A stretch of 20,650 bases of DNA from a virus: positions 1 through 20,650 of the IMG/VR virus record IMGVR_UViG_3300025889_001171. One strand, 5' to 3'. The notes beneath the pieces are model-generated. The model searched no databases and was not told the DNA's origin. It saw only the letters and a list, made by a program, of their open reading frames with translations. Position 1 is the first letter of the stretch. The number at the start of each line of letters is the position of its first letter. Shown here one piece after another: positions 123 to 19,537 of the stretch. Made by a program: the position numbers and the translations under genes.

Positions 123-1411
123 TATTTGAACATGTATCCTAGACCATCTCCACTATTAAAAGGTAAACTTAAAGATACTCTAGGAACAAAATTACCAGTA
201 TCATTCACAGATGCACCTATGTTTACAGGAAAACCAATATTTGAAGTTGGATAAATTGATTTTAAAAGGTCAATAGTAGTATTTACTCCAAGAGTATTGC
301 CCGCCGGAGAAGCACCAAAATAAGGGGTCACTATAGCAGGACTATTTGTACCTATATTTAAAGGAAAAGATTTTGAAATAGAAGCACCCGGAGCATCGTT
401 AGACGAAATACCTGCTGATAAACCTACACCATAAGGTAGCTGAGTTCCTATCCCTAAGTTGTAAGAATTATCATCAAAATTGTAGCTCCCACCATAACCG
501 ATACCAAAATTATCGCTTAAAGGTAAATAATTTCCTAAATTAGCCGATTGGTTTAAAGCATTTAAATTCACTTCTCCGACAGGGGTATTTAAGTTTACCC
601 CTCTTTGTGCCGCATCATAATAATCTACTGCTTTTTCTAAAACACTTGTAGGACTTGGAATACTCAAGTTCAAGGCAGTAGCGTTTGCTAATTTTTCTTC
701 TAAAGTTCTATTATCACTGTAATCTTTATTTGCATTTTCCATAGCTATTTGAACTAGCATATCGTTAGGGTTTGTCGCAGCTATCCCTGTGTCTACTCCC
801 ATTGAACTAAAATAATCTTTCATATCTGAAGTAGGTTGAGGAAATTGAGTTTCAATTCCTTGTGCTTGAGTTTGTGAACCTGTGCCAAAATAGTCTCTAA
901 GCTTGTTCCACGCATCGCTAACAGCACTTCCTATTTTAGTTGCTGTACTAACAAAAGGAATTCCATATGCCTGTAACATTTTACTAGCACCATAACCAAT
1001 ATCTCCCATAATTTCCTTTGGAGTAGGACCAAACCTGTATGCAAAATCTCTTGATACATCACCTACAGATCTTCCTCCAGGAAACTCTGTTAAATATACA
1101 GGTTCACCTGTATTAGGGTTCATTACAGGATTTCCTTTTGAATCTTTTAAAACTCTACCACTATCTATGAGAGCTTGTTTAAATTGATTGACACCACCTT
1201 CTTGGCGAGTTCTTCTTAAAACTCTTTCTTCAGGAATATCTTTTCTATCACCAAAAAACTTTTGTCTTTGAAGATTAACAAAAGCGTCTTTCTTACCTGA
1301 GGAAGGAACAGAAGATATACCACCAGATTGACCCTGATAGCCATGATACTTAGATTCTTTTGGAGCAGATATCTTTTGCTTTGCTTTTGCCTGTTCCCAT
1401 GGAGAAGCCAT
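122..1411 (-). CDS. Probable internal-virion/ejection protein with beta-rich C-terminus
   Basis: 429 residues, last in the run of large virion genes, starting at an ATG that overlaps the previous stop (TAATG). The first 100 residues are basic and Gln/Lys rich (MASPWEQAKAKQ...). The middle is helical and acidic-polar. Residues about 301-429 change character: alternating hydrophobic/polar strands rich in Gly, Asn and Tyr (segments such as GIGYGGSYNF, LGIGTQLPYGVGLSAG, PRVSLSLPF), ending in an aromatic residue. This resembles membrane beta-barrel or beta-solenoid sequence more than a coiled coil. No named family is recognised. Its place in a block of ejection-type genes suggests a virion component that leaves with the DNA. 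An outer-membrane pore role for the C-terminus is speculation. Confidence 0.6.
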   Translation of the reverse strand: MASPWEQAKAKQKISAPKESKYHGYQGQSGGISSVPSSGKKDAFVNLQRQKFFGDRKDIPEERVLRRTRQEGGVNQFKQALIDSGRVLKDSKGNPVMNPNTGEPVYLTEFPGGRSVGDVSRDFAYRFGPTPKEIMGDIGYGASKMLQAYGIPFVSTATKIGSAVSDAWNKLRDYFGTGSQTQAQGIETQFPQPTSDMKDYFSSMGVDTGIAATNPNDMLVQIAMENANKDYSDNRTLEEKLANATALNLSIPSPTSVLEKAVDYYDAAQRGVNLNTPVGEVNLNALNQSANLGNYLPLSDNFGIGYGGSYNFDDNSYNLGIGTQLPYGVGLSAGISSNDAPGASISKSFPLNIGTNSPAIVTPYFGASPAGNTLGVNTTIDLLKSIYPTSNIGFPVNIGASVNDTGNFVPRVSLSLPFNSGDGLGYMFK

Positions 1412-3933: not shown

Positions 3934-3934
3934 T

Positions 3935-6211: not shown

Positions 6212-7131
6212 TAAAATAATCCTGACAATCCTTTCAATCCACTAAGAGCTCCTAGGCCTAATGAACCGTAACCTATTATTTGTTGTAAAGGGGAAACCGA
6301 TCCGCCGCCCGCGGTACTAAAAGAAGGAATAGATGGAGCATAGCCAAATGCAGAGCCTAAGAACCCTAATTCAGTGAATGGTTGCTGGTACTGTGCTAAC
6401 TGATTAGCATAATCAATATCATATCCTTTTTGTTCTTGTTGTTGCTGTAAGTTTGCAAAATCTAACATTGTACCAATATCAGTAAGACCTGCTTGTTGAG
6501 CGCCAAATCCAAGACCTGCCTGACCTGAACCTAAAGTACCATAAAGAGAGCCTAGCCCACCTAAACCTTGTGCAGTTGCTCCAAGTCCTGTGGCAGCAGC
6601 TTGTTGAGATCCAAAATATTGTTGTAAACCTTGTGTATAAGCATCAGCTTGAGCTCTAGCTAATGCATCAGCCCTATTTCTTTCTAATTCAGATCTTTGA
6701 ACGCCTTCTCTTCCGCCACCAAAAGCATTTGCTCCAATAGCTCCGGCAGCAGCTTGATTAGCAGCAATATCATAAGCACGATTGATTTCACTTTGAACCG
6801 CTTGTTGATAAGGGTTCATATAAGGTTGAATCTGTTCTAAAGTAGGGGCTTTCCCTAATCCTGTGTAAATATCTGCTGCCTGTCCATAAATATCTGCAGC
6901 TCCACCTAAACTTTCAACACCAGTAGCCATTGTGTTCACAGCTGTATTAACATAAGGTTGATAAGCTCCAATACCTGAAGTAAAGGCTGTCTGAGCTTTA
7001 TCATATAATTCATTTAAATCGGCTAATTTTTGCTCAGGAATACCAGTAACATCACCGGCTTTGATGTCTTTAATAAGCTGTTGGATACTGTCTAAGTATC
7101 CTAAATATTTACCCTGAATCTCTTCTTCCAT
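6211..7131 (-). CDS. Ala/Gly/Gln-rich virion protein
   Basis: 306 residues. After a helical start, residues 104-155 hold a segment (YMNPYQQAVQSEINRAYDIA and then NAFGGGREGVQRSELERNRA) that recurs in marine phage virion proteins as I recall them. The centre is a low-complexity Gly/Ala/Gln tract (repeats of GLG and QQ), and the C-terminus has a Gly-rich hydrophobic tail ending GLSGLF. Residue 273 falls in an Ala-Gly-Gly-Gly-Ser site written in unusually GC-rich codons (positions 6298-6313). Start and stop overlap both neighbours as TAATG. The composition suggests a flexible or membrane-active ejection protein, like P22 gp7-type proteins, but I cannot show homology. Confidence 0.6.
   Translation of the reverse strand: MEEEIQGKYLGYLDSIQQLIKDIKAGDVTGIPEQKLADLNELYDKAQTAFTSGIGAYQPYVNTAVNTMATGVESLGGAADIYGQAADIYTGLGKAPTLEQIQPYMNPYQQAVQSEINRAYDIAANQAAAGAIGANAFGGGREGVQRSELERNRADALARAQADAYTQGLQQYFGSQQAAATGLGATAQGLGGLGSLYGTLGSGQAGLGFGAQQAGLTDIGTMLDFANLQQQQEQKGYDIDYANQLAQYQQPFTELGFLGSAFGYAPSIPSFSTAGGGSVSPLQQIIGYGSLGLGALSGLKGLSGLF
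6298..6313 (-). repeat. GC-rich 16-bp motif, copy 1
   Basis: The minus-strand sequence fits CGCGGRCGGCGGNYCG and encodes Ala-Gly-Gly-Gly-Ser. It differs from copy 2 at one base. It stands out sharply from AT-rich surroundings and overlaps a CCGCGG palindrome at 6309-6314. Confidence 0.7.
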
Positions 7132-8138
7132 TATGCTCTCCCTACTATTCCCAAGCTTTGTTGAGATAAGTTACCACCATTTTCTAAATTTTTCATCAAC
7201 TGATACATCTTTTTTGCTCCCTCTTTCCGCGAGCCGCCGCCCGCGTTTCTCACTGCCTGAGCAGTCATTACAAATTCACCATCACTTAACATTGCAGGGA
7301 TATCGTCCGATGTTCCTGTTCCTTTACCAGCTATCTCACCGATACGTCTTGGATGTTCTTTTACGTTCCCATCAGGGTGTTCAATTTTTTGGCCACTGCC
7401 AGCTGCATAACCGGTTATCGGACCGCCGTCCGCGGCATAAGAAATGAAGAAATCATCTCTTGCTTGTTGTACATAATCTGTATCATCTACTTCAGGTTTA
7501 GGTAAAACAAAAGGTAGAGCTGCACTACCTGCTAAATATAAAGGACCATAACGACCCATAAAACTTCTTTCTGGTTTGATACCTAATTTTAATACGTCAA
7601 CAGGATCCATTCCATATTCTTCTACATATTTTCTAAAAACAGGGTTTTCTATAGACGCTTCACTAAATGGGTTTAATCTTGCGCCTAAACCTTCAGTAAA
7701 AAAGTCTTTTGTTGCTCCACCTATTTTTTGAAAAAATCCTGGCTTATCTGAAACAGTTTGTATTCCTTTTGATGCTCCACCTAAGTCACTTAAGAAAGGA
7801 TAATCTTTTCCTCCACCAATTGCCGCTGTTCCTGTATCAATGGCTGATTTAGTTCCAGTAGCAGCTTTACTAAATCCACCAGTTAACCCTGTAAGAGCAG
7901 TTTGTATTGCTAAATTTTTTGCAACGTCTGCTGGCTTTTGACCTGCGGCTAAATTAATTCCTGCACCAATACCTAATTGTGCAAGTGGTCCTATGCCAGG
8001 TATAAAAGGTAAAACATAAGGAGCGACAGGGGCAACAGCTTTCGCTACACCTGTTACTGTATCTTTAACATTTTGAAAAAAATCACCAATAAGAGATCCA
8101 AGACCTAATTCATATACCTGTGGATACTCTTGATTCAT
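7131..8138 (-). CDS. Virion protein with SDDIPAMLSDGEFVM motif
   Basis: 335 residues. Residues about 28-66 form a hydrophobic Pro/Gly/Ala-rich segment (KAVAPVAPYVLPFIPGIGPL) that could enter a membrane. The C-terminal 65 residues contain GTGTSDDIPAMLSDGEFVMT followed by AQAVRNAGGGSRKEGAKKMY. I know this motif from many phage virion proteins, including tape-measure-like and ejection proteins; its function is unknown. A Gly-Gly site, AADGGPITGYAAG, lies at about 234-248. Both that site and the later AGGGS are encoded by the GC-rich motif reported separately. The start at 8138 is supported by AAGGA eight bases upstream; the stop overlaps the next ATG. It is probably an internal-virion or distal-tail protein ejected with the DNA. 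Confidence 0.6.
   Translation of the reverse strand: MNQEYPQVYELGLGSLIGDFFQNVKDTVTGVAKAVAPVAPYVLPFIPGIGPLAQLGIGAGINLAAGQKPADVAKNLAIQTALTGLTGGFSKAATGTKSAIDTGTAAIGGGKDYPFLSDLGGASKGIQTVSDKPGFFQKIGGATKDFFTEGLGARLNPFSEASIENPVFRKYVEEYGMDPVDVLKLGIKPERSFMGRYGPLYLAGSAALPFVLPKPEVDDTDYVQQARDDFFISYAADGGPITGYAAGSGQKIEHPDGNVKEHPRRIGEIAGKGTGTSDDIPAMLSDGEFVMTAQAVRNAGGGSRKEGAKKMYQLMKNLENGGNLSQQSLGIVGRA
7230..7245 (-). repeat. GC-rich 16-bp motif, copy 2
   Basis: One mismatch to copy 1. It encodes the same Ala-Gly-Gly-Gly-Ser pentapeptide at the C-terminus of a different protein, using GCG, GGC and TCG codons that look rare elsewhere in the window. Confidence 0.7.
7419..7434 (-). repeat. GC-rich 16-bp motif, copy 3, with hairpin
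   Basis: Same consensus; it encodes Ala-Asp-Gly-Gly-Pro. Here it can also form a small hairpin: CGGAC at 7419-7423 pairs with GTCCG at 7428-7432 around a four-base loop. It overlaps CCGCGG at 7430-7435. A perfect 12-bp palindrome, ATAACCGGTTAT, sits just beside it at 7407-7418. Confidence 0.65.
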
Positions 8139-8144
8139 TTTTCA

Positions 8145-8399
8145 TTATCCTTTTTTAACCACAGCACCTGTAAATAGTTTCGGTGCAATAACATTAACAT
8201 CTCTCCTAATATCCGACACAGTAGTAGCAGTAGAAGGATTAGCCACGTCAGCAGCACAATGATCCTCAGACTCATACGTTTCACCAGTTCGGGTATTAGT
8301 AATTGTGGTCTCGACTTTACAGCTATAAACAGGGATTTGGTTCCCTTCAATATCGTACTCATAGCGTAAGATGACCGGTTCATCTACTATTTTATGCAT
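8145..8399 (-). CDS. Small conserved marine-phage protein
   Basis: 84 residues (MHKIVDEPVILRYEYDIEGN...). It has a Thr-rich centre with TNTRTGETYESEDHCAADVA and an ending around DIRRDVNVIAPKL. Similar small proteins (an E-Y-x-S-x-x-x-x-x-A-D-V pattern followed by I-x-R-D-V) occur, as I recall, in virion regions of cyanophages and pelagiphages; their function is unknown. Among the minus-strand frames here this one has balanced composition; the overlapping frame is a Leu run without family resemblance. No Shine-Dalgarno precedes the ATG. The 24-base gap upstream holds AACTATA-like direct repeats and a TATACT, so leaderless translation from a local promoter is conceivable but unsupported. Confidence 0.6.
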   Translation of the reverse strand: MHKIVDEPVILRYEYDIEGNQIPVYSCKVETTITNTRTGETYESEDHCAADVANPSTATTVSDIRRDVNVIAPKLFTGAVVKKG

Positions 8400-8423
8400 A
8401 GTATAGTTTTATAGTTGTTTTAT

Positions 8424-8987
8424 CTAGAAATCAATGGTTTTACTGTAATCAAAAGCTTTAAAGTCTTCTTTATATATCTCATATATCTTGTCTTTTCTCT
8501 CTTTAGTTAAAAGTTTCTTGTAATCAATTTCTACATTTTTAGGATTAAAATTACCGAACCTTCTAACAGGCATATCAAATAACTTTTGCATTTGAGTTAG
8601 CTTTTCTTGAAAGTTCTCATATTTGACAACTAGATTAATTTTATCTAGGTAGTCTTTTAGGTATTCTGAAATAGGCATATTATGAGTTTCAATGTGGGCT
8701 GTTGTTCCTCTAAAATTCCAATCTAAATATTCATCAAAAGAAGCTGTATTTCTTATCCAAGTGGATCTAATGGCTTGTTGCCAACAAGAAACAGTTCTTG
8801 TGTAAGGGTGTCGAACAGTTGTAAATATAAAATAGTTTTTATTTAAGGCCTCTTCTATCATTGATTTGTTATTTTTTTCCCAAAGGTATCTAATATTATG
8901 GGTAACATTTTTTGAATGAATAGGACCGAGCCAATCGTTCACGGTACTCGAAGCAGTCTTAGCGGTTCGTAGATAAAGAAGTGTCAT
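8424..8987 (-). CDS. PAPS-dependent sulfotransferase family protein
   Basis: 187 residues, a compact member of the sulfotransferase superfamily (Sulfotransfer_2-like). Residues 6-14 (LRTAKTASS) match the 5'-phosphosulfate-binding loop, usually xxPKTGxTS, with Lys10 as the expected PAPS contact. Residues 57-67 (TVRHPYTRTVS) match the 3'-phosphate-binding motif R-x-P-Y-x-R-x-x-S. VKYENF at 121-126 matches the conserved v-x-y-E-n-l step. Such enzymes move sulfate from PAPS to a sugar or tyrosine hydroxyl. The PKTG proline is replaced (RTAKTA). There is no signal peptide, so it would act in the host cytoplasm. It starts two bases after an oxygenase-like gene, with no Shine-Dalgarno, so the pair is probably coupled. 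The acceptor is unknown; virion glycan, fibre or host surface saccharide are all possible. Confidence 0.8.
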   Translation of the reverse strand: MTLLYLRTAKTASSTVNDWLGPIHSKNVTHNIRYLWEKNNKSMIEEALNKNYFIFTTVRHPYTRTVSCWQQAIRSTWIRNTASFDEYLDWNFRGTTAHIETHNMPISEYLKDYLDKINLVVKYENFQEKLTQMQKLFDMPVRRFGNFNPKNVEIDYKKLLTKERKDKIYEIYKEDFKAFDYSKTIDF

Positions 8988-8989
8988 TA

Positions 8990-9523
8990 TTATTGAAAAG
9001 TTAAGCTTAAATTACCAGCTATAGTAATAGCGTTGTTTGTCTTTTTAACATAATGCTCAATAAAACTAGGAAATATTATAATCTGATTTTCTCTACATTC
9101 TGGAACGTAATTTAATGGTCCAAAAAAAGTCTTTTTTCTGTTACAACTACTATAAAAAGACTCTATAAGTTTATTAGTTGGATGTAAAAAAACTGTTCTT
9201 GATTCATCTATTTTTTTATAAATTATAAAAGACAAATCAGATTGAATATGAATATGTTTTTCTTGGAAGTCAGAATCAATATAGTGATTTTCCCAAATGT
9301 TTATTATTTGTAATTGATAAGGATTTTTAATTGTTTCATCAAGCAGTCCAATAATTTTTTTATATAAATATTCAACAGACTCTTTAGTTATATTGGTTCC
9401 TTTAGAATAAGAAGTTAACATTTCAGAACCAAAGGAAGTTTTTAGTTCTTCTTGATCTAACTTTATTAGAGAAGAGTCTATATTTCCAATCCATATTGGA
9501 ACAGAGAATAAATCTATTTTCAC
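8990..9523 (-). CDS. 2OG-Fe(II) oxygenase-like protein, HxH type, 2OG arginine missing
   Basis: 177 residues beginning at GTG, which overlaps the previous stop (TAGTG). The core has His90-Ile-His92 followed by QSDLSFIIY, then FPSFIEH with distal His157, then a strand ITIAGN. This is the double-stranded beta-helix layout of 2OG-Fe(II) oxygenases in which HxH...H replaces HxD...H. It resembles the 167-aa protein at 15227-15730 (shared HIH, SFIIY and IAGN blocks), so the two are probably paralogues. In that paralogue an Arg (DRIVIAGN) sits where 2OG carboxylate binding is expected; here the position is Ala165 (NAITIAGN). It could use another residue, a different cosubstrate, or be inactive. It directly precedes the sulfotransferase, far from the main oxygenase cluster. 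Confidence 0.65.
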   Translation of the reverse strand: MKIDLFSVPIWIGNIDSSLIKLDQEELKTSFGSEMLTSYSKGTNITKESVEYLYKKIIGLLDETIKNPYQLQIINIWENHYIDSDFQEKHIHIQSDLSFIIYKKIDESRTVFLHPTNKLIESFYSSCNRKKTFFGPLNYVPECRENQIIIFPSFIEHYVKKTNNAITIAGNLSLTFQ

Positions 9524-10637: not shown

Positions 10638-10807
10638 TATCGACTAAAATACCAAGCCTCAGCTTCGGACTTTTCCTCAGAGTCTACTGGATAAGTAGAG
10701 TTTAATTGTTGTATAAGCGATTCCAAAATACGAATTAATTCAAAGAAGTTCCTAGGTTCATATTCTTGTCCTGGATCAGGGAATCTGTTTAAGGTTATTT
10801 TTGCCAT
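10637..10807 (-). CDS. Conserved 56-aa protein between tail-hub genes
   Basis: A complete 56-codon frame exactly fills the space between two structural genes, with TAATG overlaps at both ends. The product begins MAKITLNRFPDPG and continues FFELIRILESLIQQLN, ending EAEAWYFSR. It has an amphipathic central helix, an acidic EEKSEAEAW segment and a terminal aromatic/basic tail. I recall small proteins of this pattern (helix containing R-x-L-E-x-x-x-x-Q-L-N followed by an EAxxWF ending) right after the stabilisation protein gene in marine phages. It could be an assembly factor or small virion component. The exact fit of start and stop to both neighbours makes it very likely real despite its length. 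Confidence 0.75.
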   Translation of the reverse strand: MAKITLNRFPDPGQEYEPRNFFELIRILESLIQQLNSTYPVDSEEKSEAEAWYFSR

Positions 10808-12630
10808 TATCTTCTACCATCGGGTTGTACTTCAAAACGAAGTGTGCCTAATCTCCATGCAGTTCCTGTTGTATTAGAAACTAAGTTAGCTGTAAAGGAT
10901 CTTCCTCTTCCTCGTAAATCTACCTTGTTAGTTGTAGAGGTAAAACTGGTTGATTTAGATACAGGTGTTGTATCATTGGGATATCTAGAAAATTCAAAGT
11001 CTAAATTTAAAACACCACTTTGATTTTGTATATCAGGAATCAATCTAGAAACAAAAGCAAACTCATCGCCCTGTGCAATCTGCACATCGCCTGATTTAAG
11101 ATAGGCAGTGATTGCTGCTCCGTCTGCATCGGTTCCTTGTTCTTGTAAGTAAACAGTAGAGGCACCATTAGTTAAACCTAAGATAGTTTCATTATTGGCA
11201 GTTGCTGTTGAATCATAATAAGTAGCAATAGGGTTATCAAATACTTCTCTGTCTATCCAAGATGTTCTTCTTAAAGTTCCTGTCCACCAAGTACCCTCAA
11301 CATAATTGTAAGCTACAACTGCATTGATTTGATCCGAGCCTGTTCTAGCATAGAACCATAAAACCTCATTAAACTCACCATTATGTCCTGTAAAAGTATT
11401 CTCGGAAGCTGTTTGATTTAAATTACTAAAGACATATTGTTCTACAGTACAAGGCAGTTTTTTTACCGAACCATCAAATAAATAGAAAGAGTCTTGAGAC
11501 ATCCAATAAGAAACACCGTTTAAATCAATTGCACCGTGTTGACCAATAATACCACAGTTCTGACCAAGCTGTCGTAAACCAAAAGTAAAAGGAGGGCCAA
11601 TGTATTGTAGTGACTGTAGTGATGTATCTGTCCAAACTAATATCTGACCACGAGATCGTTCGGCGGCAATGATCCGTGATCCGTCAGTGATTCTCAGTGA
11701 ACCAGCAGTATTAATCGCTGTCGGTGCATAGTCGTTGATATTCTCTTGGTCAGAGAATCGTAAGAATAAATCATCTTGTGTAGCAGGATTACCAATCGTT
11801 GTTTCCGTACCTAATAAAATTAAATGTCTATCAGGAGTAGAAACTAAACTTAATCTAGAAGCAGTGGGAGCATTTGCTACAGCAGTTGCTCTTGTAGAAG
11901 TTCCAGCAGAAGTGTCCCAAATATAAGTACCACCATTTAAAACTGTTGCAATCAAGTCCTCTCCATAATTGTCCAGGGACCACTGACGAGCCTCCAATGT
12001 TACATTGGAAGAAGAAGAAGGACTTCCCCACCCACCTAAACTCCAACCATCTGTTCCCCAACCATACGCTGGTACAGAGAACTCAGGACCAGTTTGTATT
12101 TGATAAGCTGCATTACCTGTTCCTCCACCTGTAGAAGAACCTGAAGCAGTATCGGTGTGAGTGACTGTGTAAGCTGAAGTATTAACTACTTGTGTAATTT
12201 CAAACTCTTGATTCATATCTAAACCATCAATGGTAGAGAAAGAATCATAGGTAACAAAGTCGCCTGCTACAGCACCATGTCCCGCATCTGTAACTAAAAC
12301 AGTTGAAGTGCCATTCGTTGTAAAAGGATCAGTAAGAGCTTCTGTTGCTCGAAGAGGAGTGATGTCACTAACTATACCTTCTGAATAAACATAAAGCTTT
12401 CGATCTGTACCAAAAGCATCATAGCGTGTGCCGTCTAAAGATACCCAAGCGTGCTGATCTCTAACCACACCCACAATAGTCGTGGAGACGAACTTCTCCC
12501 ATCCTTTGATTTTCTGTGGCAATCCTTGAAAGAAGCGTACATTATCCGAGTCTACCCATTTGCCTTCGCCTGTGTAGTCGGTTACTTCTTTATTGATGCC
12601 TGGTGCTGGTCTAAAATTAGTAAGTGGCAT
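10807..12630 (-). CDS. P22 gp10-like packaged-DNA stabilisation / tail hub protein
   Basis: 607 residues. The N-terminus (RPAPGINKEVTDYTGEGKW, then DNVRFFQGLPQKIKGW) is the signature I associate with the phage stabilisation family of P22 gp10, which plugs the portal and forms the tail hub after packaging. The rest is beta-rich with Trp/Tyr/Gly blades (YGWGTDGWSLGGWGS about residues 190-205; GGTYIWDTS; GVSYWMSQDSFYLFDG; YNYVEGTWWTG), fitting a beta-propeller. The C-terminal third is a beta-sandwich-like region ending LRFEVQPDGRR. The ATG at 12630 has AGG five bases upstream and begins five bases after the glycosyltransferase stop. The stop overlaps the 56-aa gene. This is the best marker of a short-tailed phage here. 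Confidence 0.75.
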   Translation of the reverse strand: MPLTNFRPAPGINKEVTDYTGEGKWVDSDNVRFFQGLPQKIKGWEKFVSTTIVGVVRDQHAWVSLDGTRYDAFGTDRKLYVYSEGIVSDITPLRATEALTDPFTTNGTSTVLVTDAGHGAVAGDFVTYDSFSTIDGLDMNQEFEITQVVNTSAYTVTHTDTASGSSTGGGTGNAAYQIQTGPEFSVPAYGWGTDGWSLGGWGSPSSSSNVTLEARQWSLDNYGEDLIATVLNGGTYIWDTSAGTSTRATAVANAPTASRLSLVSTPDRHLILLGTETTIGNPATQDDLFLRFSDQENINDYAPTAINTAGSLRITDGSRIIAAERSRGQILVWTDTSLQSLQYIGPPFTFGLRQLGQNCGIIGQHGAIDLNGVSYWMSQDSFYLFDGSVKKLPCTVEQYVFSNLNQTASENTFTGHNGEFNEVLWFYARTGSDQINAVVAYNYVEGTWWTGTLRRTSWIDREVFDNPIATYYDSTATANNETILGLTNGASTVYLQEQGTDADGAAITAYLKSGDVQIAQGDEFAFVSRLIPDIQNQSGVLNLDFEFSRYPNDTTPVSKSTSFTSTTNKVDLRGRGRSFTANLVSNTTGTAWRLGTLRFEVQPDGRR

Positions 12631-12635
12631 GAAGC

Positions 12636-13448
12636 CTACTTTACATCATCTTTTCTCGCAAATAAAGAGCCAACATGACCTTTGAATGCCTTATTTCCAA
12701 AGTGTGTCAGAGGCATAGAAACATCAGCCCATATCTCTCCTCCACATTCTTGCCATAGTCTAGAGAAGTAATAATCTTCTGATAAGTATCTTTTTAAACC
12801 TGGTCTTGTTTCATAGACACCAGCGCAGAATAAATCATAGCAGTTATCAGAGCTAAAGGATTTACCATTAATAATCTGATCGGATTGATACTTGCGTTCA
12901 GGAAACTTTTTAAACATTGTTCTAAAGACTTCTCTTTTAACTAACATCATCCCTGTGGCAGCTTCATTCACTTTACAGAAACCATTTTCCATTTTGACAT
13001 TTTGAGGATCATCAAAATTTAGATTATAGCCTAGTGATTTTACCTCTAATTCGTCAGGGGAAGCATTAGGATTATCTTTTAATATTTGAGGTATCTTTTC
13101 AAAGTGAATATGTTTTCTTGGGTAAATACCACACACAACTTCTTTATCAAAACAAAGTAATCTTTCTATATTTCGCGCATCAAATCCAATATCAGAATCA
13201 ATAAATAATAAGTGGGTAGCTACATAGTCTGTTGCATCCATCATCATAGAAACAACAGTATTACGAGCTCTTGTAATAAGACTTTCATTACCCATGGATT
13301 GAACTCTCATTCCTACTCCACGAGCCATGCACCACTGTTGTAGATTTAATAATCCATGCATAGTGTTCTCTGTTAACATTCCGCCATACATTGGCATTCC
13401 TAAGAATATTTTAAAATTCTTATCTTTTAGTTCTTCTGGTTTAATCAT
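12636..13448 (-). CDS. GT-A fold glycosyltransferase
   Basis: 270 residues. After a ten-residue leader, FKIFLGMPMYGG starts the Rossmann-like GT-A strand. HLLFIDSDIGFD carries the Asp84-Ser-Asp86 (DXD-type) metal/nucleotide-sugar motif. ATGMMLVKREVF is the acceptor-side strand. LSEDYYF at 222-228 supplies an Glu224-Asp225 candidate base, and LTHFG has His249, a typical third metal-side residue. The enzyme would transfer a sugar from a nucleotide-sugar donor; donor and acceptor cannot be read from sequence. The start is fixed by AAGGAG seven bases upstream. Its first ten residues are identical to those of the preceding 2OG oxygenase because of a 29-bp DNA repeat. It lies between the oxygenase block and the tail hub gene, so it may modify a virion protein or a hydroxylated residue made by its neighbours. 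Confidence 0.75.
   Translation of the reverse strand: MIKPEELKDKNFKIFLGMPMYGGMLTENTMHGLLNLQQWCMARGVGMRVQSMGNESLITRARNTVVSMMMDATDYVATHLLFIDSDIGFDARNIERLLCFDKEVVCGIYPRKHIHFEKIPQILKDNPNASPDELEVKSLGYNLNFDDPQNVKMENGFCKVNEAATGMMLVKREVFRTMFKKFPERKYQSDQIINGKSFSSDNCYDLFCAGVYETRPGLKRYLSEDYYFSRLWQECGGEIWADVSMPLTHFGNKAFKGHVGSLFARKDDVK
13420..13448 (-). repeat. 29-bp direct repeat, copy at glycosyltransferase start
   Basis: Identical to 13930-13958 over 29 bases. It encodes the initiator and next residues (MIKPEELKD plus two bases of K10) of the glycosyltransferase. The copies are 510 bp apart and bracket the 2OG oxygenase gene. Confidence 0.9.
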
Positions 13449-13451
13449 ACT

Positions 13452-13958
13452 TTACTCCTTAAATTTAAATACCACAGTAAAACGTGGCTGTGTTTTAAAC
13501 GATGAGGCTGAATGTGATATACTAGCATCAAATACAGCTATTCTTCCTGGTATAGGTAAAACCGAAACTAAAGTATTATTCTCAGAAAGAAATTTTGTTT
13601 CTCCTCCTTCATTTAAATCATATTCTAAATTAGGGTAGTATAACAAAGTATATCCACTATAGTCATCTATATGAAAATTAGCATTTTCTTTAGGGGAAAA
13701 GTAATTTACATAGGATCTTGTTATTTTTTTATTTTTTAAGAAATCATTTTTCTTAATAAAAGAATGTATTGCCCTATAACAATAATGCACATTTGTTATT
13801 TCAGAAACTAAACCAGTGGGTAAATCCTTTGGATTATCTCTTTCACCATAAAAATAAGGCAATCCTTTTACCTCTACAAAAATAGCTTCTTTATCTTGAA
13901 TTTGATTATCTATTATCTTAATCATTTTTTTATCTTTTAGTTCTTCTGGTTTAATCAT
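13452..13958 (-). CDS. Prolyl-4-hydroxylase-like 2OG-Fe(II) oxygenase
   Basis: 168 residues. RSYVNYFSPKENANFHIDDY gives the HxD pair His96/Asp98. TLLYYPN...NEGGETKF is the classic strand-turn (YLN...EGGET) of P4H-type oxygenases. GRIAVFDASISHS gives distal His149, and PRFTVVFKF gives the 2OG-binding Arg159. All four key residues are present, so activity is likely: hydroxylation of a peptide or small molecule with 2OG, O2 and Fe(II). The first ten residues duplicate those of the glycosyltransferase. A second ATG at codon 12 (MIKIIDNQ) may be the ancestral start, but the AAGGG site six bases before codon 1 supports the long form. It begins nine bases after the JmjC/cupin-like gene. Confidence 0.8.
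   Translation of the reverse strand: MIKPEELKDKKMIKIIDNQIQDKEAIFVEVKGLPYFYGERDNPKDLPTGLVSEITNVHYCYRAIHSFIKKNDFLKNKKITRSYVNYFSPKENANFHIDDYSGYTLLYYPNLEYDLNEGGETKFLSENNTLVSVLPIPGRIAVFDASISHSASSFKTQPRFTVVFKFKE
13455..13460 (-). promoter_or_regulatory. Ribosome binding site of the glycosyltransferase
   Basis: AAGGAG on the minus strand, six bases before the ATG triplet at 13448-13446, embedded in the end of the upstream oxygenase gene. It supports using the repeated MIKPEELKDK start. Confidence 0.7.
13930..13958 (-). repeat. 29-bp direct repeat, copy at 2OG oxygenase start
   Basis: Exact copy of 13420-13448. Downstream of the repeat the reading frame goes straight into the oxygenase, whose own internal Met12 follows two codons later. 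Confidence 0.9.
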
Positions 13959-13964
13959 TATTTT

Positions 13965-13969
13965 CCCTT
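13965..13969 (-). promoter_or_regulatory. Ribosome binding site of the P4H-like oxygenase
   Basis: AAGGG lies six bases before the ATG at 13958, whereas the internal ATG at codon 12 has only AAAAGATAAAA upstream. This favours translation from the duplicated leader. Confidence 0.55.
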
Positions 13970-14507
13970 ATTCAATATTACATGTCATAGACAGTTTTGG
14001 TTGGTTAATTTCTATCACTTGATGGTCAATAAATTTATCAAACCAAATGAAATCATTATCTTTAACAATAACTTCTTTTTCTTCTAAAATCCATTTAGAT
14101 TGTCCGTATATGTTTTTAACTATAACTGGATAATGGTGAGAATGTTTTTTAAAAGAAACTGATTTTTTTCCATTTCCAAAATAAAAATTGCAATTTATAG
14201 GTAAATTATAAAAATTTTTTAGTCCTTGATGTAATATCCAAGTATCTTTAGAAAAACCTTGGATTGCTGATAAAATTAAAGTGTAACCTTCTTCGTAACA
14301 TTTTATACATTTTTCAGAATCCAAATATCCATCTTTCCAAAAAAAATCGTTATGTTTTGATCCATCTTCATTAATTGCTTCAACACTAGGTTGATTCCAA
14401 GGGTATAGAACTGGCCATCTCATTCTATCTAATAATCTTTCTAAAATGTCATCTTCAGAAATATTAATTACTTTTGTTTTTAATAAATTAAATAATGTCT
14501 TATCCAT
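13968..14507 (-). CDS. JmjC/cupin-like oxygenase with HxH motif
   Basis: 179 residues. The N-terminal 100 are mixed, with C67xxC70 and WP-LYPWNQP. The C-terminal 75 look like a JmjC/cupin core. NFYFGNGKKS is followed by His122-Ser-His124, then Gly135 and Lys138-Trp139, close to the spacing in JmjC enzymes such as FIH (HxD, Gly 11 residues after the Asp, then Lys). NDFIWFDKFIDH places His162 exactly where the GDxLYxPxxWxH histidine falls. So the candidate metal triad is His122/His124/His162, with His in place of the usual Asp/Glu. FIH-type enzymes hydroxylate Asn or other side chains; this one's substrate is unknown. A non-enzymatic cupin is the alternative. It starts three bases after the neighbouring stop with no visible Shine-Dalgarno. 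Confidence 0.55.
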   Translation of the reverse strand: MDKTLFNLLKTKVINISEDDILERLLDRMRWPVLYPWNQPSVEAINEDGSKHNDFFWKDGYLDSEKCIKCYEEGYTLILSAIQGFSKDTWILHQGLKNFYNLPINCNFYFGNGKKSVSFKKHSHHYPVIVKNIYGQSKWILEEKEVIVKDNDFIWFDKFIDHQVIEINQPKLSMTCNIE

Positions 14508-14510
14508 ATT

Positions 14511-15227
14511 TTATTTATTAAAAGGACATTTTGTTGCTTTAGATAAAAAATCATTAACAAATCTAGACCTTATATTTTCATACTTTTTAAATTCTTGATC
14601 ATCTACTAGATGATAGACTAGTTTTATTTTTTTATTAGTCAAAGGTATTAAGTGACTGATAGGAGTGTTCTGTGAAATAAATATTGGATCCTTTTGACTT
14701 GGAAAAAATAAATTAATATTTACCATATGTATATTATAAAAATCTAATATACCTGAAGAAACACTTAATTTAAATGGATTTAAATTCCAATAAGGAGATG
14801 TCATATACCATTGAAATAGTTTTTTTGTTTTTATAGCCCATGGTGTATCTATTTTTAAATGAAAGTAATCTTTAGGGTTTAAATAAGTATTCCATTGTTT
14901 AGCACTATGGCTAGATATACTAGTTTGTTTATCTGCTGCCTCCCAATTTATTTGATAAGAATCTTCTGAAATAAATTTTTGTTGTATTAATAAGTCAGTC
15001 CATAAAGGAACAATAATGCCTGTTTTATAGTTATTAATTAATCCAGCGCAAGTTTTTAAAGTTAAACCAGGAGCAAGAGAATTATCTATTTTAAAATTTT
15101 TTTCAGTTTTTTTCCACCAATTAGGTAAAAATTTACTAGCTTTATCTATTTTATAATCTTTAAATGCTCTCTGATGATTTGTGAAAACATCCACATATAA
15201 CGGTTTAGTTAGAAACTTAAATAACAC
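14511..15227 (-). CDS. Conserved marine-phage protein of unknown function (DUF6065-like)
   Basis: 238 residues starting at GTG that overlaps the upstream stop (TAGTG). The order of motifs is FLPNWWKKT (about 33-41), LKTCAGLINNYKTGIIVPLW (about 57-76), SSHSAKQW (about 104-111), DTPWAIKT (about 127-134) and a C-terminal FFPSQKD...ISQNTPISHLIPL. This matches the layout I recall for an uncharacterised protein in cyanophages and other marine phages (P-x-W-x-K; K-x-C-x-x-x-x-D-x-x-x-x-G; W-D; PW; G-T-P-I-x-x-I-I-P-L), which I believe is annotated as DUF6065, and which sits near 2OG oxygenase genes there. The late GTPI...IIPL strand pair is reminiscent of a beta-helix enzyme, but I see no convincing HxD/H triad. 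Function is unknown; co-location suggests a partner of the oxygenases. Confidence 0.6.
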   Translation of the reverse strand: MLFKFLTKPLYVDVFTNHQRAFKDYKIDKASKFLPNWWKKTEKNFKIDNSLAPGLTLKTCAGLINNYKTGIIVPLWTDLLIQQKFISEDSYQINWEAADKQTSISSHSAKQWNTYLNPKDYFHLKIDTPWAIKTKKLFQWYMTSPYWNLNPFKLSVSSGILDFYNIHMVNINLFFPSQKDPIFISQNTPISHLIPLTNKKIKLVYHLVDDQEFKKYENIRSRFVNDFLSKATKCPFNK

Positions 15228-15730
15228 TATCCGTTGTAAGTATTGCCAGCTATTACTATTCTATCTTTTTTATGATATCCTGTATCTGGTGCGTGAGTTA
15301 AAAAAGAATTCCACACATATAAAGTATCTACTTCTGGAGTTAAATAAAATATATTTGCATGTATATCTTTAAATATAGTTCCTTTTTCAGTTGGGGTAAC
15401 ATAGATTATAAATGAAAATTCCGTGTCCGCATTACTCATTTGATGAATATGCCAATTTAATCTTTCTATAATTGTATTACCTTGTTGTAAGTAAGCCCAA
15501 CATCGTAGCTTAGTTTTTTCATTAAATTCAGGATAATTAGACAAAGATTTGATAATAAAAGAATTAATATCTTTCATAAAATCTTGTTGTAAAAGACCAG
15601 CATCACTTTGAATTTTAGGATGAGTACATTTAGGATATTCACTACAACAAGGATTAGATCCTATATATTTATTTAATTTTGAAATAGTTTCTGAACTAAT
15701 TAAATTATTAAATTTAAAATTATTGATCAT
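15227..15730 (-). CDS. 2OG-Fe(II) oxygenase family protein, HxH type
   Basis: 167 residues. CWAYLQQGNTIIERLNWHIH ends in His94-Ile-His96, SFIIYVTP follows, and then VDTLYVWNSFLTHAP carries distal His146 and KKDRIVIAGN carries Arg157. This is the complete layout of the HxH-type phage 2OG oxygenases (2OG-FeII_Oxy_5-like). The N-terminal part has a Cys-rich turn, CCSEYPKCTH at 28-37, which could bind a metal. The start is well supported by GAGGAG seven bases upstream, even though it overlaps the preceding gene by 11 bases. It is the likely paralogue of the 177-aa protein at 8990-9523. The substrate is unknown. Confidence 0.72.
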   Translation of the reverse strand: MINNFKFNNLISSETISKLNKYIGSNPCCSEYPKCTHPKIQSDAGLLQQDFMKDINSFIIKSLSNYPEFNEKTKLRCWAYLQQGNTIIERLNWHIHQMSNADTEFSFIIYVTPTEKGTIFKDIHANIFYLTPEVDTLYVWNSFLTHAPDTGYHKKDRIVIAGNTYNG

Positions 15731-16286
15731 TTTTAATCTCCTCTATTGTAGCATTAAATGCTAAAGATAATCTATCTTCATTTGAAGTATGTTTAGAAAC
15801 ACTATGTTTTACACTTGCTAGAAAAAATATTAATGAATTACTTTGTAAAGTACAAGCATCTCTAAAATCTGGAAAACCCATTATAGTATCTGTTGTTGGA
15901 ACTCTAGCATAAAATCCTCCAGAAAATCCATTTAAACAATGTATATGATGAGCAGTATGATCTCCTAGTGAATGCCTCATTCCCCAACACTCATATATCT
16001 TAGTTCTTAAAGGAATACTTGGATTAGGGCTTCTTAATTTATATGTTATTGAAATTGTATCCATAATTTTTTTAAGTAAGAAATGAAATTTAGGTTCTTG
16101 CAGTATAGCTACCCACCCTGTCATCTTAGCGTGTACATTTGTTTTATATTTTTGCGACTGATCTTTTTTTGTAAGTTCGTCTAAAGCATTAGTAACAAAA
16201 GATAATTCTTCCTCAGATAAAAAATCTTTGTAGAGATATACAGCGTTTATACTACTTTCATTGTGTTGTAATATATCAATATTCAT
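15720..16286 (-). CDS. 2OG-Fe(II) oxygenase, 2OG-FeII_Oxy_5-like
   Basis: 188 residues, starting at an ATG that overlaps the previous stop (TAATG). KIYECWGMRHSLGDHTAHHIH gives His114-Ile-His116, and NGFSGGFYARVPT is the SGxxY-x-x-x-P strand typical of the phage/bacterial 2OG-FeII_Oxy_5 type. SNSLIFFLASVKHSV supplies distal His161 and EDRLSLAFN supplies Arg172. The full metal and 2OG set is present, so I expect an active enzyme. N-terminal residues 14-48 look like the helical cap of this family (YLYKDFLSEEELSFVTNALD). Related genes are common near fibre genes in marine cyanophages; their substrates are not established as far as I know. No Shine-Dalgarno is visible, so translational coupling to the double oxygenase is likely. 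Confidence 0.78.
   Translation of the reverse strand: MNIDILQHNESSINAVYLYKDFLSEEELSFVTNALDELTKKDQSQKYKTNVHAKMTGWVAILQEPKFHFLLKKIMDTISITYKLRSPNPSIPLRTKIYECWGMRHSLGDHTAHHIHCLNGFSGGFYARVPTTDTIMGFPDFRDACTLQSNSLIFFLASVKHSVSKHTSNEDRLSLAFNATIEEIKNDQ
15738..15743 (-). promoter_or_regulatory. Strong ribosome binding site inside upstream oxygenase gene
   Basis: GAGGAG is seven bases before the ATG at 15730 and is embedded in the last codons of the 188-aa oxygenase gene. It is the clearest Shine-Dalgarno in the cargo block, where other genes rely on stop-start overlap. Confidence 0.7.
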
Positions 16287-17503
16287 TATTTAAAATAAGG
16301 ACCTACTAGCCAAGTAACAACTGATCTTCTTATTCCACTTTTTACAGGCTCTACTCCATGCGCTAAAAAAGAAGGAAAAATAATTACATCACCTGGATTT
16401 TGAGAAGGATAAATTTTTTCTTTAGCTATTTCAAGATATAACTGACCACCCTCAAAGTCATCATTTAAAATTAAAATTACTGTTAATTTTCTACACTGAT
16501 CACTACCATACTCTTGTAATATGGTATCAATATGAGTTGCAAAATGTCCATTTTCATCATATCGAAGATATTCTGATTGATTACTATTAGTAATATGAAA
16601 ATTCCAAGAATTTTTATTTGCAGCTAAACCAATACCAGTTAAGGTCGCTCCTAGTCCTATACTATTATTTTGAATTATTTTTTTAGTATCTCTAATGGAT
16701 AAGTCTAATTGGTCTCCTATTAATAAAGCAGGGATTAAATTATCTTGATTTGATTCAAATTTATTAATAATTCTTTGACATCCTTCTTTACTAAAAGCTT
16801 CTTTAGCAACAAGAAATCTACCATTATCAGGATTATCTGTTTCTTTTTTTAAATCTTTTTTATTATTCTCAAGAAAAGATAATAAATTTTTTCTAAATTC
16901 TTTTCCTTTTTCTAATTTAATACTGTTTTCTTTTAATATTGCATGATGCTCTAATTCTTTTCTTTTATCATATTTCCATTCAGCATTAGGTCCATTTTGA
17001 TCTACATAGTGTATAAAAACTTGCGCTTGCCATTGTCCTTCTACATATTTTTCTCTCCAATGAAAAAGTTCACAGCCTTTATAAATGACAGCATCTCCGA
17101 TATTCATATCAATTTTTCTAGCATCTTGTTTATTAAATTCATGACCAACATAAATAGGCCATTGATTTCCTTCAAAACCTAAATTAATAGTTGCGCTAAT
17201 TTCACAAGCAGGTCTATCTCTATGAATTTTTAATTCATCTCCTGGCGCATACCAACGAGCATAAGCATAAGTTGGAAATAAACTTAATCCTGTTATTTTC
17301 TCCATAGCAGGAGTTAATTCATCTAATAAATTATCAAATAAAGCACAGTGTCCTACTGAATGAGAAAGAGGACATTGTTGATCTTGAAAAGTATCTCCTT
17401 GATCTATTAAAGCTTTAAAGGCTTTTACATGTTCTTGACATGATTCTAAGTCTAGTAAATTAGGAACATGTATATATTTTTGCGTATGAAATAATTCTTG
17501 CAT
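16286..17503 (-). CDS. Fused double 2OG-Fe(II) oxygenase
   Basis: 405 residues with two separate catalytic cores. Domain 1 (about 1-185): YARWYAPGDELKIHRDRP gives His94/Asp96, SATINLGF follows, and GDAVIYKGCELFHW carries distal His148, ending AQVFIHYV. Domain 2 (about 228-405) is P4H-like: NGHFATHIDT gives His324/Asp326, RKLTVILILNDDFEGGQLYL is the YLN-EGGxL turn, PGDVIIFPSFLAHGVEPV carries His382, and IRRSVVTWLVGP carries Arg392/393. A charged Lys/Glu linker (about 186-227) joins them. Both metal triads are intact. Usual family members are single domains of roughly 200 residues, so this is a fusion. It is the first gene of the cargo block, 47 bases after the small tail gene. A hydroxylated peptide or sugar product is expected; the substrate is unknown. 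Confidence 0.82.
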   Translation of the reverse strand: MQELFHTQKYIHVPNLLDLESCQEHVKAFKALIDQGDTFQDQQCPLSHSVGHCALFDNLLDELTPAMEKITGLSLFPTYAYARWYAPGDELKIHRDRPACEISATINLGFEGNQWPIYVGHEFNKQDARKIDMNIGDAVIYKGCELFHWREKYVEGQWQAQVFIHYVDQNGPNAEWKYDKRKELEHHAILKENSIKLEKGKEFRKNLLSFLENNKKDLKKETDNPDNGRFLVAKEAFSKEGCQRIINKFESNQDNLIPALLIGDQLDLSIRDTKKIIQNNSIGLGATLTGIGLAANKNSWNFHITNSNQSEYLRYDENGHFATHIDTILQEYGSDQCRKLTVILILNDDFEGGQLYLEIAKEKIYPSQNPGDVIIFPSFLAHGVEPVKSGIRRSVVTWLVGPYFK

Positions 17504-17550: not shown

Positions 17551-17853
17551 TTATTCAGGAATAGGTTGACTTATTTCACCAGGATAAGTGGCATGTGGTA
17601 CTACTTTACAAGTATTATCACTTGTGTCAAAATACCATAAATCTGCTTTACAATCATTAGAGCAATCTACCCATTTAAAACCATTGGGATTTACTTCAAA
17701 AACATTTGAATCTTCTTCTACTTGACAAATTCTTTGAGCATTAGAAAGAAGGTCAATATTACTAGAATAGCTCGTTGGAGTTGTATTTGGAATCTCTGTC
17801 CATGAAGTAACATAATATATTTTTGTTTCCTGTGTACTAACTAAAGCTTTCAT
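17551..17853 (-). CDS. Small tail-associated conserved protein
   Basis: 100 residues, ATG overlapping the fibre stop (TAATG). The centre reads NVFEVNPNGFKWVDCSNDCK and continues DLWYFDTSDNTCKVVPH. I recall a small family in cyanophages and other marine phages with the pattern F-x-V-x-x-x-x-F-x-W-V-D-C followed by D-x-W-Y-x-x-x-x-x-T, encoded downstream of fibre genes; its function is not known. Cysteines at about 63, 84, 88 and 98 could form metal or disulfide links. It is probably a fibre-associated virion component or assembly factor. Confidence 0.6.
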   Translation of the reverse strand: MKALVSTQETKIYYVTSWTEIPNTTPTSYSSNIDLLSNAQRICQVEEDSNVFEVNPNGFKWVDCSNDCKADLWYFDTSDNTCKVVPHATYPGEISQPIPE

Positions 17854-18704
17854 TAATAAAATTCCTCTACTATAACAGCACCTGAGGCACCTGAACCACC
17901 ACTATATGGTCCACGTTGAGCATCAGTTGCGGTAGCACTTGAACCACCACCACCAAATCCAGCACCTGGTGTTCCATTTACCGCACTCATACTTTCTTTA
18001 ACTCCACCAGGACCATAAAAACTTGAACCACCTTGATCTGGTTGCCCTGTGGAGCCATTAATATTAATTTGACCACCTGAACCACTTCCACCAGGTCCAC
18101 TTTGATTTGGTCCTGGATTTCCATAACCACCTGTACCACCTGAACCCGAACAAAATGCCCCAAAAGAAGATGTACCACCTGGATTTCCATAACCTGTTGA
18201 ATTATAACCAGGAGGGCCATTTGGATTTCCACCTGGACCGACTGTAACACTAACTGGACCGGGTATACTTGCGGCAGGTATATATTCTATGGCTGTTCCA
18301 CCTCCACCACCTGACTTACTAACTTGAGTCATAGGAGCGCCCCGTGCACCACCAGCACCTCCACCTCCACCAACAACTGTTACTTTTATAGCAGCGACAT
18401 TGGCTGGCTTTGTCCATGTAGTTGATCCTGTATAAACTTGTTGTATATAGTTTCCACCTCCACCAGCAGCACCAAACTCAAGACCAGTGCCACCTGCATT
18501 TACTTTTAAAACTTGGTCAGCAGAACCAAGAGCAGTTAATCCTGTTCCACCTTTAGATACGGGTACAGTGGGAAGTCTATCGGAAGCTAAAGTTCCTGAT
18601 GAAACGTTGGAAGCATTGATTGCAGAAACACCTGCACCAGGACCTGTAATGGTACTAGTTGTATCGAGTGTTCCTGTAACTGTGGTTGATGTTAAATTTG
18701 CCAT
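17853..18704 (-). CDS. Gly/Pro-rich tail fibre / adhesin-like protein
   Basis: 283 residues. Residues 24-57 (NASNVSSGTLASDRLPTVPV and then SKGGTG) are a fibre shaft repeat of the kind found in many phage tail fibres; a related SSGTVADARL lies in the fibre at the right edge. After YTGSTTWTKP (91-100) comes a glycine-rich receptor-binding-like domain to the end: poly-Gly blocks at 112-120, 132-136 and 250-254, with Gly-Pro and Gly-Asn-Pro runs (GPGGNPNGPPG, YGNPGPNQSGPGG), finishing GAVIVEEFY. This layout resembles the Gly-rich adhesins of tailed phages, whose loops form polyglycine-II-type bundles. Its many Pro and Asn residues make it the most plausible substrate for the oxygenase cluster that follows, which is inference. 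Poly-Gly here uses GGT/GGA codons. Confidence 0.75.
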   Translation of the reverse strand: MANLTSTTVTGTLDTTSTITGPGAGVSAINASNVSSGTLASDRLPTVPVSKGGTGLTALGSADQVLKVNAGGTGLEFGAAGGGGNYIQQVYTGSTTWTKPANVAAIKVTVVGGGGGAGGARGAPMTQVSKSGGGGGTAIEYIPAASIPGPVSVTVGPGGNPNGPPGYNSTGYGNPGGTSSFGAFCSGSGGTGGYGNPGPNQSGPGGSGSGGQININGSTGQPDQGGSSFYGPGGVKESMSAVNGTPGAGFGGGGSSATATDAQRGPYSGGSGASGAVIVEEFY

Positions 18705-18709
18705 GTGTT

Positions 18710-19537
18710 TTACCTACCTTTTTTTAGCATATCTAAGTCTTTTTTCAAATCCTTAATTGCGTGTAAAAGATACACTGCGAGTTTAGTATATTTAATACCT
18801 TCAGGATTTCCGTCTTTTAAATGCACCAACTCAGGTGCAATTTTGTAGACTTCCTCAGCGATTAAGCCTACTTCATTTTTTTGACTACCATCTTTCCTGT
18901 CATAAACAACAGGATCCATAGATAAGATAGCCTCTGTTGTAGCCTCTAGGCTACGGATATTTTCTTTATAGGCAATACTCGATGTTTCCACCACAGTGCC
19001 TGCGGTCATTGTGCCTGTAACGGTTATATTAGCAGAAGCAGTGACATTGTCTGTTAAAGTGGTTGTTCCTGTGACAGTTAAGTTGCCTGATAAAGTGACA
19101 TCCTCTAATGCTAGATCAGAGAAAATATTTTTAACATTGTAGTTAGAAGCACCATCACAATACAAATAAGAATAAGCACCTTGAGTAACAGCTACACCGT
19201 TGGCATCATGTCCTGTCGCTGCAACAGTAATAGAATAAGCACCTGAGGTGTTGTTATAAATTACATAATTATTTTCTACGGCAGGAATAAAAACATAAAT
19301 ATTTCCTGTCAGTGTTCCATTTAAATCAATTACTTTATTAGAAGATTCAGCAGTCGGATCAGCATTAGCTGTAGTTAGTGTAACATTCGAAGATCCTGCA
19401 ACGCTCTTGGATAAAAAGCCAGCAGAGAAAGCATCAACTGTTTCTAAATTTGTATTTGTATTATTGCCCCAGGTATTCGCATTAGCGCCTGTTTCCATTA
19501 ACTCTAATTTTAATCTACTTGAATAGGTACTAGCCAT
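18710..19537 (-). CDS. Tail fibre with C-terminal peptidase S74 chaperone domain
   Basis: 275 residues. The N-terminus (TYSSRLKLELMETGANANTW and then GNNTNTNLETVD) is a virion-attachment type segment I recall from marine phage tail proteins. The middle is a beta-rich shaft with repeated VTGT and TVTG units (about 150-180). Residues about 183-275 form an S74 intramolecular chaperone: SSIAYKENI, DPVVYDRKDG, NEVGLIAEEVYKIAPELV and GIKYTKLAVYLLHAIKDLK, ending in a short coiled coil. By spacing, Ser186 and Lys191 fit the autocleavage dyad (Ser and Lys five apart), so the chaperone is probably released after trimer folding. The start overlaps the previous gene by eight bases and has AAGGA eight bases upstream. 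Confidence 0.82.
   Translation of the reverse strand: MASTYSSRLKLELMETGANANTWGNNTNTNLETVDAFSAGFLSKSVAGSSNVTLTTANADPTAESSNKVIDLNGTLTGNIYVFIPAVENNYVIYNNTSGAYSITVAATGHDANGVAVTQGAYSYLYCDGASNYNVKNIFSDLALEDVTLSGNLTVTGTTTLTDNVTASANITVTGTMTAGTVVETSSIAYKENIRSLEATTEAILSMDPVVYDRKDGSQKNEVGLIAEEVYKIAPELVHLKDGNPEGIKYTKLAVYLLHAIKDLKKDLDMLKKGR

Follow-up and report, generated by a model that had tools for sequence, protein, structure and literature searches.

Why should a virus carry an array of oxygenase genes in the midst of its tail genes? The question is raised by a 20.65-kb virus contig with a G+C content of 34% (positions 1 to 20,650 of IMG/VR record IMGVR_UViG_3300025889_001171; this whole stretch of 20,650 nucleotides is herein referred to as the window), in which all main genes lie on the minus strand and six open reading frames (ORFs), designated F, E, D, C, B and A in the order of transcription, were confirmed at positions 13452-17503 of that strand. 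As predicted by a previous sequence-only reading of the window, they include five oxygenase-like genes with six domains. After comparison with related loci, we propose, with a probability of about 0.5, that the cluster seen here is one form of a variable island for the tailoring of virion proteins, which is common to many marine podovirus-like phages of one large lineage. The tailoring of virion proteins is considered the most likely role because of the position of the genes, the specificity of the cargo, the linkage to the fibre tip and the resemblance of two products, F and B, to protein hydroxylases.

Variable Oxygenase Genes within a Fixed Frame of Virion Genes

Viral contigs were scanned with the tail hub/stabilisation-type virion protein encoded at 10807-12630 (minus strand; phrog_3287 E=4.4e-83; relatives annotated 'stabilization protein'), which is the anchor of the island. 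A total of 524 relatives were found, of which 80 were kept for gene maps, and 65 loci remained after removal of near-duplicates. The shared frame consists of fibre, tip, first oxygenase(s), a variable slot, a glycosyltransferase (GT), variable oxygenases, hub, a variable slot, p113, a variable slot and p84. As seen in the sequences of these loci, single enzyme genes are exchanged between the fixed virion genes (fibre, tip, hub, p113 and p84) and the fixed GT, and the exchanged genes nearly all encode iron/2-oxoglutarate (2OG) oxygenases, together with some predicted sulfotransferases, carbamoyltransferases, halogenases, methyltransferases and DUF6065 proteins. The four slots around the hub in the 65 non-redundant loci hold 337 accessory genes, of which 268 (80%) encode 2OG (258 genes) or JmjC (10 genes) oxygenases; the others are 25 DUF6065, 10 sulfotransferase-like, 5 carbamoyltransferase, 5 glycosyltransferase-like, 2 halogenase, 2 p257 and 20 unidentified genes. 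Some of the '-like' labels (for instance, cluster 40 as sulfotransferase) were assigned by reading without Pfam confirmation, while a carbamoyltransferase, a Trp halogenase (E=3e-102), a methyltransferase and a sulfotransferase were confirmed by Pfam among the cluster representatives. The slot between GT and hub carries 65 2OG and 2 DUF6065 genes and no other cargo.

The pattern HxD/E/H...H...R/K/N was found in all 308 non-redundant relatives labelled 2OG; of 277 comparably sized ORFs of other kinds, it was found in 83. Eight contigs span 36-59 kb, and in these no Pfam 2OG match is more than about 6 kb away from the hub, apart from the one at G002:50083. Since such genes stand beside the hub in all eight large contigs, and since the 308 relatives keep the pattern, the cluster is not a product of chance. 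The view of the sequence-only reading that the density is unusual does not hold, because most loci carry three to seven oxygenases, three near-identical loci carry eleven 2OG ORFs, and up to 12 2OG genes were found near a halogenase elsewhere; the density of the window is thus normal for the lineage. Cultured cyanophages, too, are known to have far more than a single 2OG gene, S-SCSM1 having 24.

Contigs retrieved with F or with the halogenase share the same plan, that is, fibre, tip, oxygenases plus halogenase plus sulfotransferase, and hub. Among 54 non-redundant halogenase loci, at least one 2OG gene is present in 49, at least two in 46 and at least three in 39, and a fibre, tip, hub or p113 gene is present in 46. 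In contig L222, the interval from a Trp-rich tip protein to the hub is taken up by an unbroken run of about 14-15 enzyme genes (739-9494), including 2OG, JmjC, DUF6065, TylF methyltransferase and Trp halogenase genes, several of which (2OG, JmjC, TylF/Methyltransf_24) were confirmed by Pfam. F-like genes were also found near the tail-fibre genes of cyanophages S-T4 and S-SCSM1. A host search through GTDB contigs gave contigs of metagenome-assembled genomes (MAGs) only, with mixed labels (Maricaulis, Flavobacteriales and others). Six contigs of one Maricaulis MAG (L239, L241-L243, L245 and L250) carry hub relatives (38-46% identity) and are probably co-binned phage contigs.

Linkage of the First Oxygenase to the Fibre-Tip Type

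Tip class and the class of the first oxygenase go together, with a normalised mutual information of 0.95 (0.25 after shuffling). Pairs of loci whose hubs are at least 70% identical share the family of the first oxygenase in 273 of 419 cases (65%) when the tip is the same versus 19 of 1752 cases (1%) when it differs, a difference of 0.64 as compared with 0.003 +/- 0.024 in 200 shuffles. The dependence on tip type is weak for the oxygenase located just before the hub, which is of the same family in 27 of 189 same-tip pairs (14%) and 19 of 902 different-tip pairs (2%). As judged from these sequences, one oxygenase (F in the window) is locked to the fibre-tip type while the others swap independently. 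The fused form of F is present in seven loci, and in all seven it is preceded by a glycine-rich fibre-tip gene, recognised by its sequence and by its place beside the fused oxygenase in relatives (17853-18704, minus strand, in the window), and, directly, by hs, a small fibre-tip-associated gene identified from gene maps and the class table (17551-17853, minus strand).

Double Oxygenase F and the Family Annotated as Ferrochelatase

F (16286-17503, minus strand) is a predicted double 2OG-Fe(II) oxygenase (PF13640, phrog_2954 and phrog_61). Its C-terminal half matches PF13640 with E=1.1e-15 and carries the motif H324-x-D326...H382...R392/R393, while the N-terminal half carries H94-x-D96...H148, its first element reading HRD; the HxD...H triad is thus present in each half, and the 2OG-binding Arg was identified in the C-terminal half (HID, AHG, RR). 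The AlphaFold2 (AF2) model of F (predicted local distance difference test score, pLDDT, of 84.7) gave PHD2, Pseudomonas putida P4H (template-modelling score, TMt, of 0.74) and the two-barrel Tpa1/OGFOD1 as top matches in the Foldseek search. The modelled F has the double-stranded beta-helix fold of the 2OG-Fe(II) oxygenase superfamily, the core on which the sequence-only reading had staked its assignment. Tpa1/OGFOD1, which are prolyl hydroxylases, share with F the predicted two-barrel fold in a single chain, but differ in that F carries the HxD...H triad in both halves, and the sequence similarity is remote.

Relatives of the N-terminal half are annotated 'ferrochelatase' in HTVC023P and cyanophages. 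After alignment (A5), three residues, which in HTVC023P are H131, D133 and H184, were found invariant in 18 relatives, and no Pfam ferrochelatase match was obtained for F or for L057:5206-5823. Because of this invariant triad and the model of F, the proteins annotated 'ferrochelatase' in related phages look like oxygenases. In profile comparison, hhalign of the 'ferrochelatase' and Oxy_3 family profiles gave a match of only 30 columns, and the 'ferrochelatase' profile found nothing useful in PDB. Oxygenase-like proteins under this annotation include gp67 of HTVC023P (L083, 5295-5915) and a protein of S-SCSM1 (L088, 10001-11362); two oxygenase-like PHROG families are likewise named otherwise, phrog_2954 as 'ferrochelatase' and phrog_274 as 'DNA endonuclease V'.

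Other Predicted Oxygenases

E (15720-16286, minus strand) is a putative 2OG-FeII_Oxy_5-type oxygenase (PF13759, 34.3 bits against a cut-off of 27; motif H114-x-H116...H161...R172). D (15227-15730, minus strand), a divergent 2OG-type protein for which BLAST among the loci gave no relative, matches a 2OG PHROG (phrog_81, E=1.9e-9) and gives a Pfam score of 14.8 bits, below the cut-off, with the motif H94-x-H96...H146...R157. A (13452-13958, minus strand) is P4H-like, with matches to phrog_274 (E=3.5e-25), PF13640 (22.6 bits, below the cut-off of 27) and the NCBIfam FlmC-family 2OG model (E=2.3e-17, below the family cut-off), and carries H96-x-D98...H149...R159. The assignment of A and D as 2OG enzymes rests on the PHROG matches and the triads. 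B (13968-14507, minus strand; phrog_29157 E=9.3e-36; motif H122-x-H124...H162) appears JmjC/cupin-like after weak Pfam matches (PF08007/PF07883, E 0.015-0.03), and the nearest solved relative of its family profile is the JmjC histidyl hydroxylase MINA53 (E=0.0028).

The cluster between fibre and hub is real, as described above, and the set extends outside positions 13452-17503: beyond the hub lie a further putative 2OG-FeII_Oxy_5 oxygenase overlooked by the sequence-only reading, X (8990-9523, minus strand; PF13759, 29.4 bits against a cut-off of 27; phrog_81 E=5.6e-25; motif H90-x-H92...H157), and beside it a sulfotransferase gene (8424-8987, minus strand; PF03567 E=8.5e-13).

The DUF6065-like Protein C

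C (14511-15227, minus strand) had been listed among the genes of the cluster, but it is not an oxygenase: the AF2 model (pLDDT 86.8) and the fold search ruled out a double-stranded beta-helix oxygenase. The predicted fold is dUTPase-like, the Foldseek neighbours in PDB and BFVD being dUTPases and dCTP deaminase-dUTPases (E 2.5e-4 for PDB; TM by target 0.4-0.6), with no match in sequence. Pfam DUF6065 is matched by 21 of 26 aligned members of the C family (best 3.6e-10), and C itself has no Pfam match. The family consensus GIVDTDxY recalls dUTPase motif III. Since this stretch reads GILDFY in the window, dUTPase activity of C is doubtful. In the family alignment (A1), H107 is near-invariant and Q111 invariant. 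Relatives of C were found only through the hub-anchored loci; direct protein search of viral contigs and phages gave none. A search of the open-access literature found no mention of DUF6065 and no description of a dUTPase-like fold for it.

Glycosyltransferase and Probable Traces of Gene Insertion

The neighbouring glycosyltransferase noted by the sequence-only reading proved to be conserved, members of the GT family being present in 84 of 87 sequences searched. The window GT (12636-13448, minus strand; phrog_34859 glycosyltransferase, E=1.3e-5) appears GT-A-like (Anp1-like) and has DSD at residues 84-86, and DxD and ED are invariant in the family. An Anp1 Pfam match was obtained for 5 of 18 GT relatives (best E=2.7e-4), with none for the window GT.

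Gene A is bracketed by two copies of a direct repeat, one at the 5' end of the GT gene (13417-13453) and the other at the 5' end of A (13927-13963), with 29 bp identical, both detected by repeat search. The first 10 codons of A duplicate the beginning of the GT gene, and the internal Met12 is probably where A natively starts. The mirror case was found in L008, where an inserted oxygenase gene separates a 27-bp copy of the GT 3' end from the GT itself (7136-7162 and 7772-7798). These repeats look like scars left where single genes entered next to the fixed GT. In L027, a second, imperfect copy of the GT start lies upstream of an oxygenase gene.

Related 2OG ORFs numbered 412, or 399 when the four reference phages are set aside, and fell into 31 families at 30% identity. 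In agreement with the claim that the cluster did not arise by simple tandem duplication, only 25 of the 412 ORFs have any BLAST match within their own locus, none at 70% identity or more, and the median best identity between loci is 86%. Tandem duplication was thus rejected as the origin, within-locus paralogues being rare and diverged and close copies residing in other loci.

Organization of the Window and Flanking Genes

On the minus strand, the genes follow in the order of two S74 fibre proteins, glycine-rich tip, hs, F, E, D, C, B, A, GT and hub, and then p257, p113, X, sulfotransferase and ejection-type proteins. The upstream border of the island is a tail-fibre gene with a C-terminal S74 chaperone domain (18710-19537, minus strand; PF13884 E=2.5e-10; tail-fibre PHROGs). 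The genes of the cluster had been described as mostly overlapping; instead, from F to GT they abut, with 3-9 nt in between, or share 1-11 nt, a tight spacing as in one operon, with Shine-Dalgarno-like sequences ahead of some genes. A scan of the window for promoters and terminators gave signals no higher than in shuffled sequence, and tRNA and Rfam scans of the window gave no match. A 429-residue ORF at 122-1411 has no BLAST relative in any locus.

Discussion

In the proposed model, the enzymes would be produced together with the tail proteins, and side chains of the fibre-tip and tail proteins would be hydroxylated during assembly, part of the hydroxyls being subsequently glycosylated or sulfated. 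A swap of enzymes would alter the chemical surface of the adhesin with the adhesin gene unchanged, and the altered surface may change receptor binding, stability or recognition. The sequence-only reading had suggested a hydroxylation-then-glycosylation cassette acting on a virion protein or a host surface molecule. The tie of the first oxygenase to the fibre-tip type favours the virion as target, but the fixed order of action on a single substrate is not supported because the GT stays while the oxygenases change, and because sulfotransferases, carbamoyltransferases and halogenases share the zone. A wider proposal, that marine phages diversify their tail adhesins chemically through exchangeable islands of enzymes that tailor peptides and sugars (oxygenases, halogenases, sulfotransferases, carbamoyltransferases and glycosyltransferases), and that these islands act combinatorially and after translation as a counterpart to diversity-generating retroelements, is put forward tentatively, with about one chance in three in our estimation.

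Several observations weigh against virion tailoring. The locked gene adjoins the tip gene, and the linkage could stem from physical proximity; since adjacency could produce part of the tie, the tie supports a functional link without proving it. Halogenation of tip Trp was rejected as a signature, the tips being Trp-rich (4.6-5.0% vs 1.5%) but alike with and without a halogenase (p=0.18). Pro-Gly, considered as a possible substrate of P4H action, showed weak enrichment in glycine-rich tips (9 observed in the window, 5.2 expected). The fold likeness to protein hydroxylases is common to 2OG enzymes with other substrates. The available parts of PMC9602691 and PMC9964418 report no search for such modifications in their virion proteomes. 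In three loci (L040, L041 and L084, the last being HTVC027P) the oxygenases between fibre and hub lie opposite in strand to the virion genes.

Among the alternatives, the best survivor, albeit an unlikely one, is that the enzymes decorate a host-surface polysaccharide or make a small secondary metabolite, for instance for excluding other phages or altering host fitness, and that the tail-side site merely tolerates insertions. Such a role has been proposed for a cyanophage cluster of carbamoyltransferase, halogenase, 2OG and cupin genes (PMC7824862), and enzymes that decorate sugars typically include sulfotransferases, carbamoyltransferases, TylF-type methyltransferase and GT. The slots, however, show no transport, scaffold or sugar-nucleotide genes, the first oxygenase goes with the fibre-tip type, and a neutral insertion site would not collect so uniform a cargo. 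Hydroxylation of host proteins such as EF-Tu and ribosomal proteins, by which translation would be steered in infection, is improbable: the nearest folds of F and B indeed include P. putida P4H (entry 4iw3 is its EF-Tu complex), Tpa1/OGFOD1 and MINA53, but at least 11 different oxygenases in one island, exchanged with the fibre type, misfit a few conserved targets. Less probable still is an action on nucleic acid, in DNA repair or hypermodification, with C as a dUTPase-like nucleotide enzyme. DNA repair has been proposed for cyanophage 2OG genes (PMC3037559, PMC9146016), and the predicted fold of C is dUTPase-like, but Tet_JBP was matched in F alone at E=0.11 (12.2 bits against a cut-off of 34.9), all of the genes lie among virion genes, and H107 and Q111 of the C family, together with the altered motif III of C (GILDFY), are unlike a standard dUTPase. 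The published reading of host metabolism (PMC3037559, PMC9599517, PMC12753301), in which the enzymes deplete 2OG or reprogram nitrogen or iron metabolism with 'ferrochelatase' partners, is the least credible, because these partners look like oxygenases (invariant HxD...H and no Pfam ferrochelatase) and consumption of a single metabolite needs no array of diverged enzymes.

Comparable systems have been described before: both pelagiphages and cyanophages are known to carry several 2OG genes, and the halogenase/carbamoyltransferase/2OG cluster has been published as well. HTVC023P-type pelagiphages (HTVC023P, HTVC027P and 023Pt; PMC9599517) likewise carry several non-orthologous 2OG genes in the fibre-hub region and, like the window, a 'ferrochelatase' adjoining a 2OG gene, but their hub is 40-43% identical, the oxygenases are fewer, and the GT is located elsewhere in HTVC023P and HTVC027P; the genes were there taken as metabolic, nearby but non-adjacent, with 'ferrochelatase' accepted at its name. 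The T4-like cyanophage S-SCSM1 has a double-domain F homologue of 453 residues, annotated ferrochelatase, and 2OG genes interleaved with tail-fibre genes; it differs as a large myovirus with 2OG genes scattered across the genome, and PMC9602691 reports 24 2OG genes, notes one two-domain protein and reads the genes as host reprogramming. The enzyme classes of the cyanophage cluster in PMC7824862, whose product was proposed to be a metabolite or a capsule decoration, match the wider island of the relatives, some of which carry halogenase or carbamoyltransferase, although the window has neither. Phage DSL-LC04 (OR003939) carries the closest hub among annotated phages (48% identical), with a single annotated 2OG gene in the region. 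In the open-access literature, we found no account of the island as a variable block from fibre tip to hub or of the fibre-tip link, nor any statement, as such, of the 2OG triad of the 'ferrochelatase' family.

Few unexplained 'metabolic' genes of marine phages are as common as those for 2OG oxygenases, which have been read variously in terms of DNA repair, nitrogen signalling and iron. The reassignment of 'ferrochelatase' would correct an annotation that has been used in arguing for iron metabolism, and cultured phages with such islands exist. If virion tailoring is true, many genes now listed under auxiliary metabolism would belong to the building of the particle, and phage adhesins would be variable through chemistry as well as sequence.

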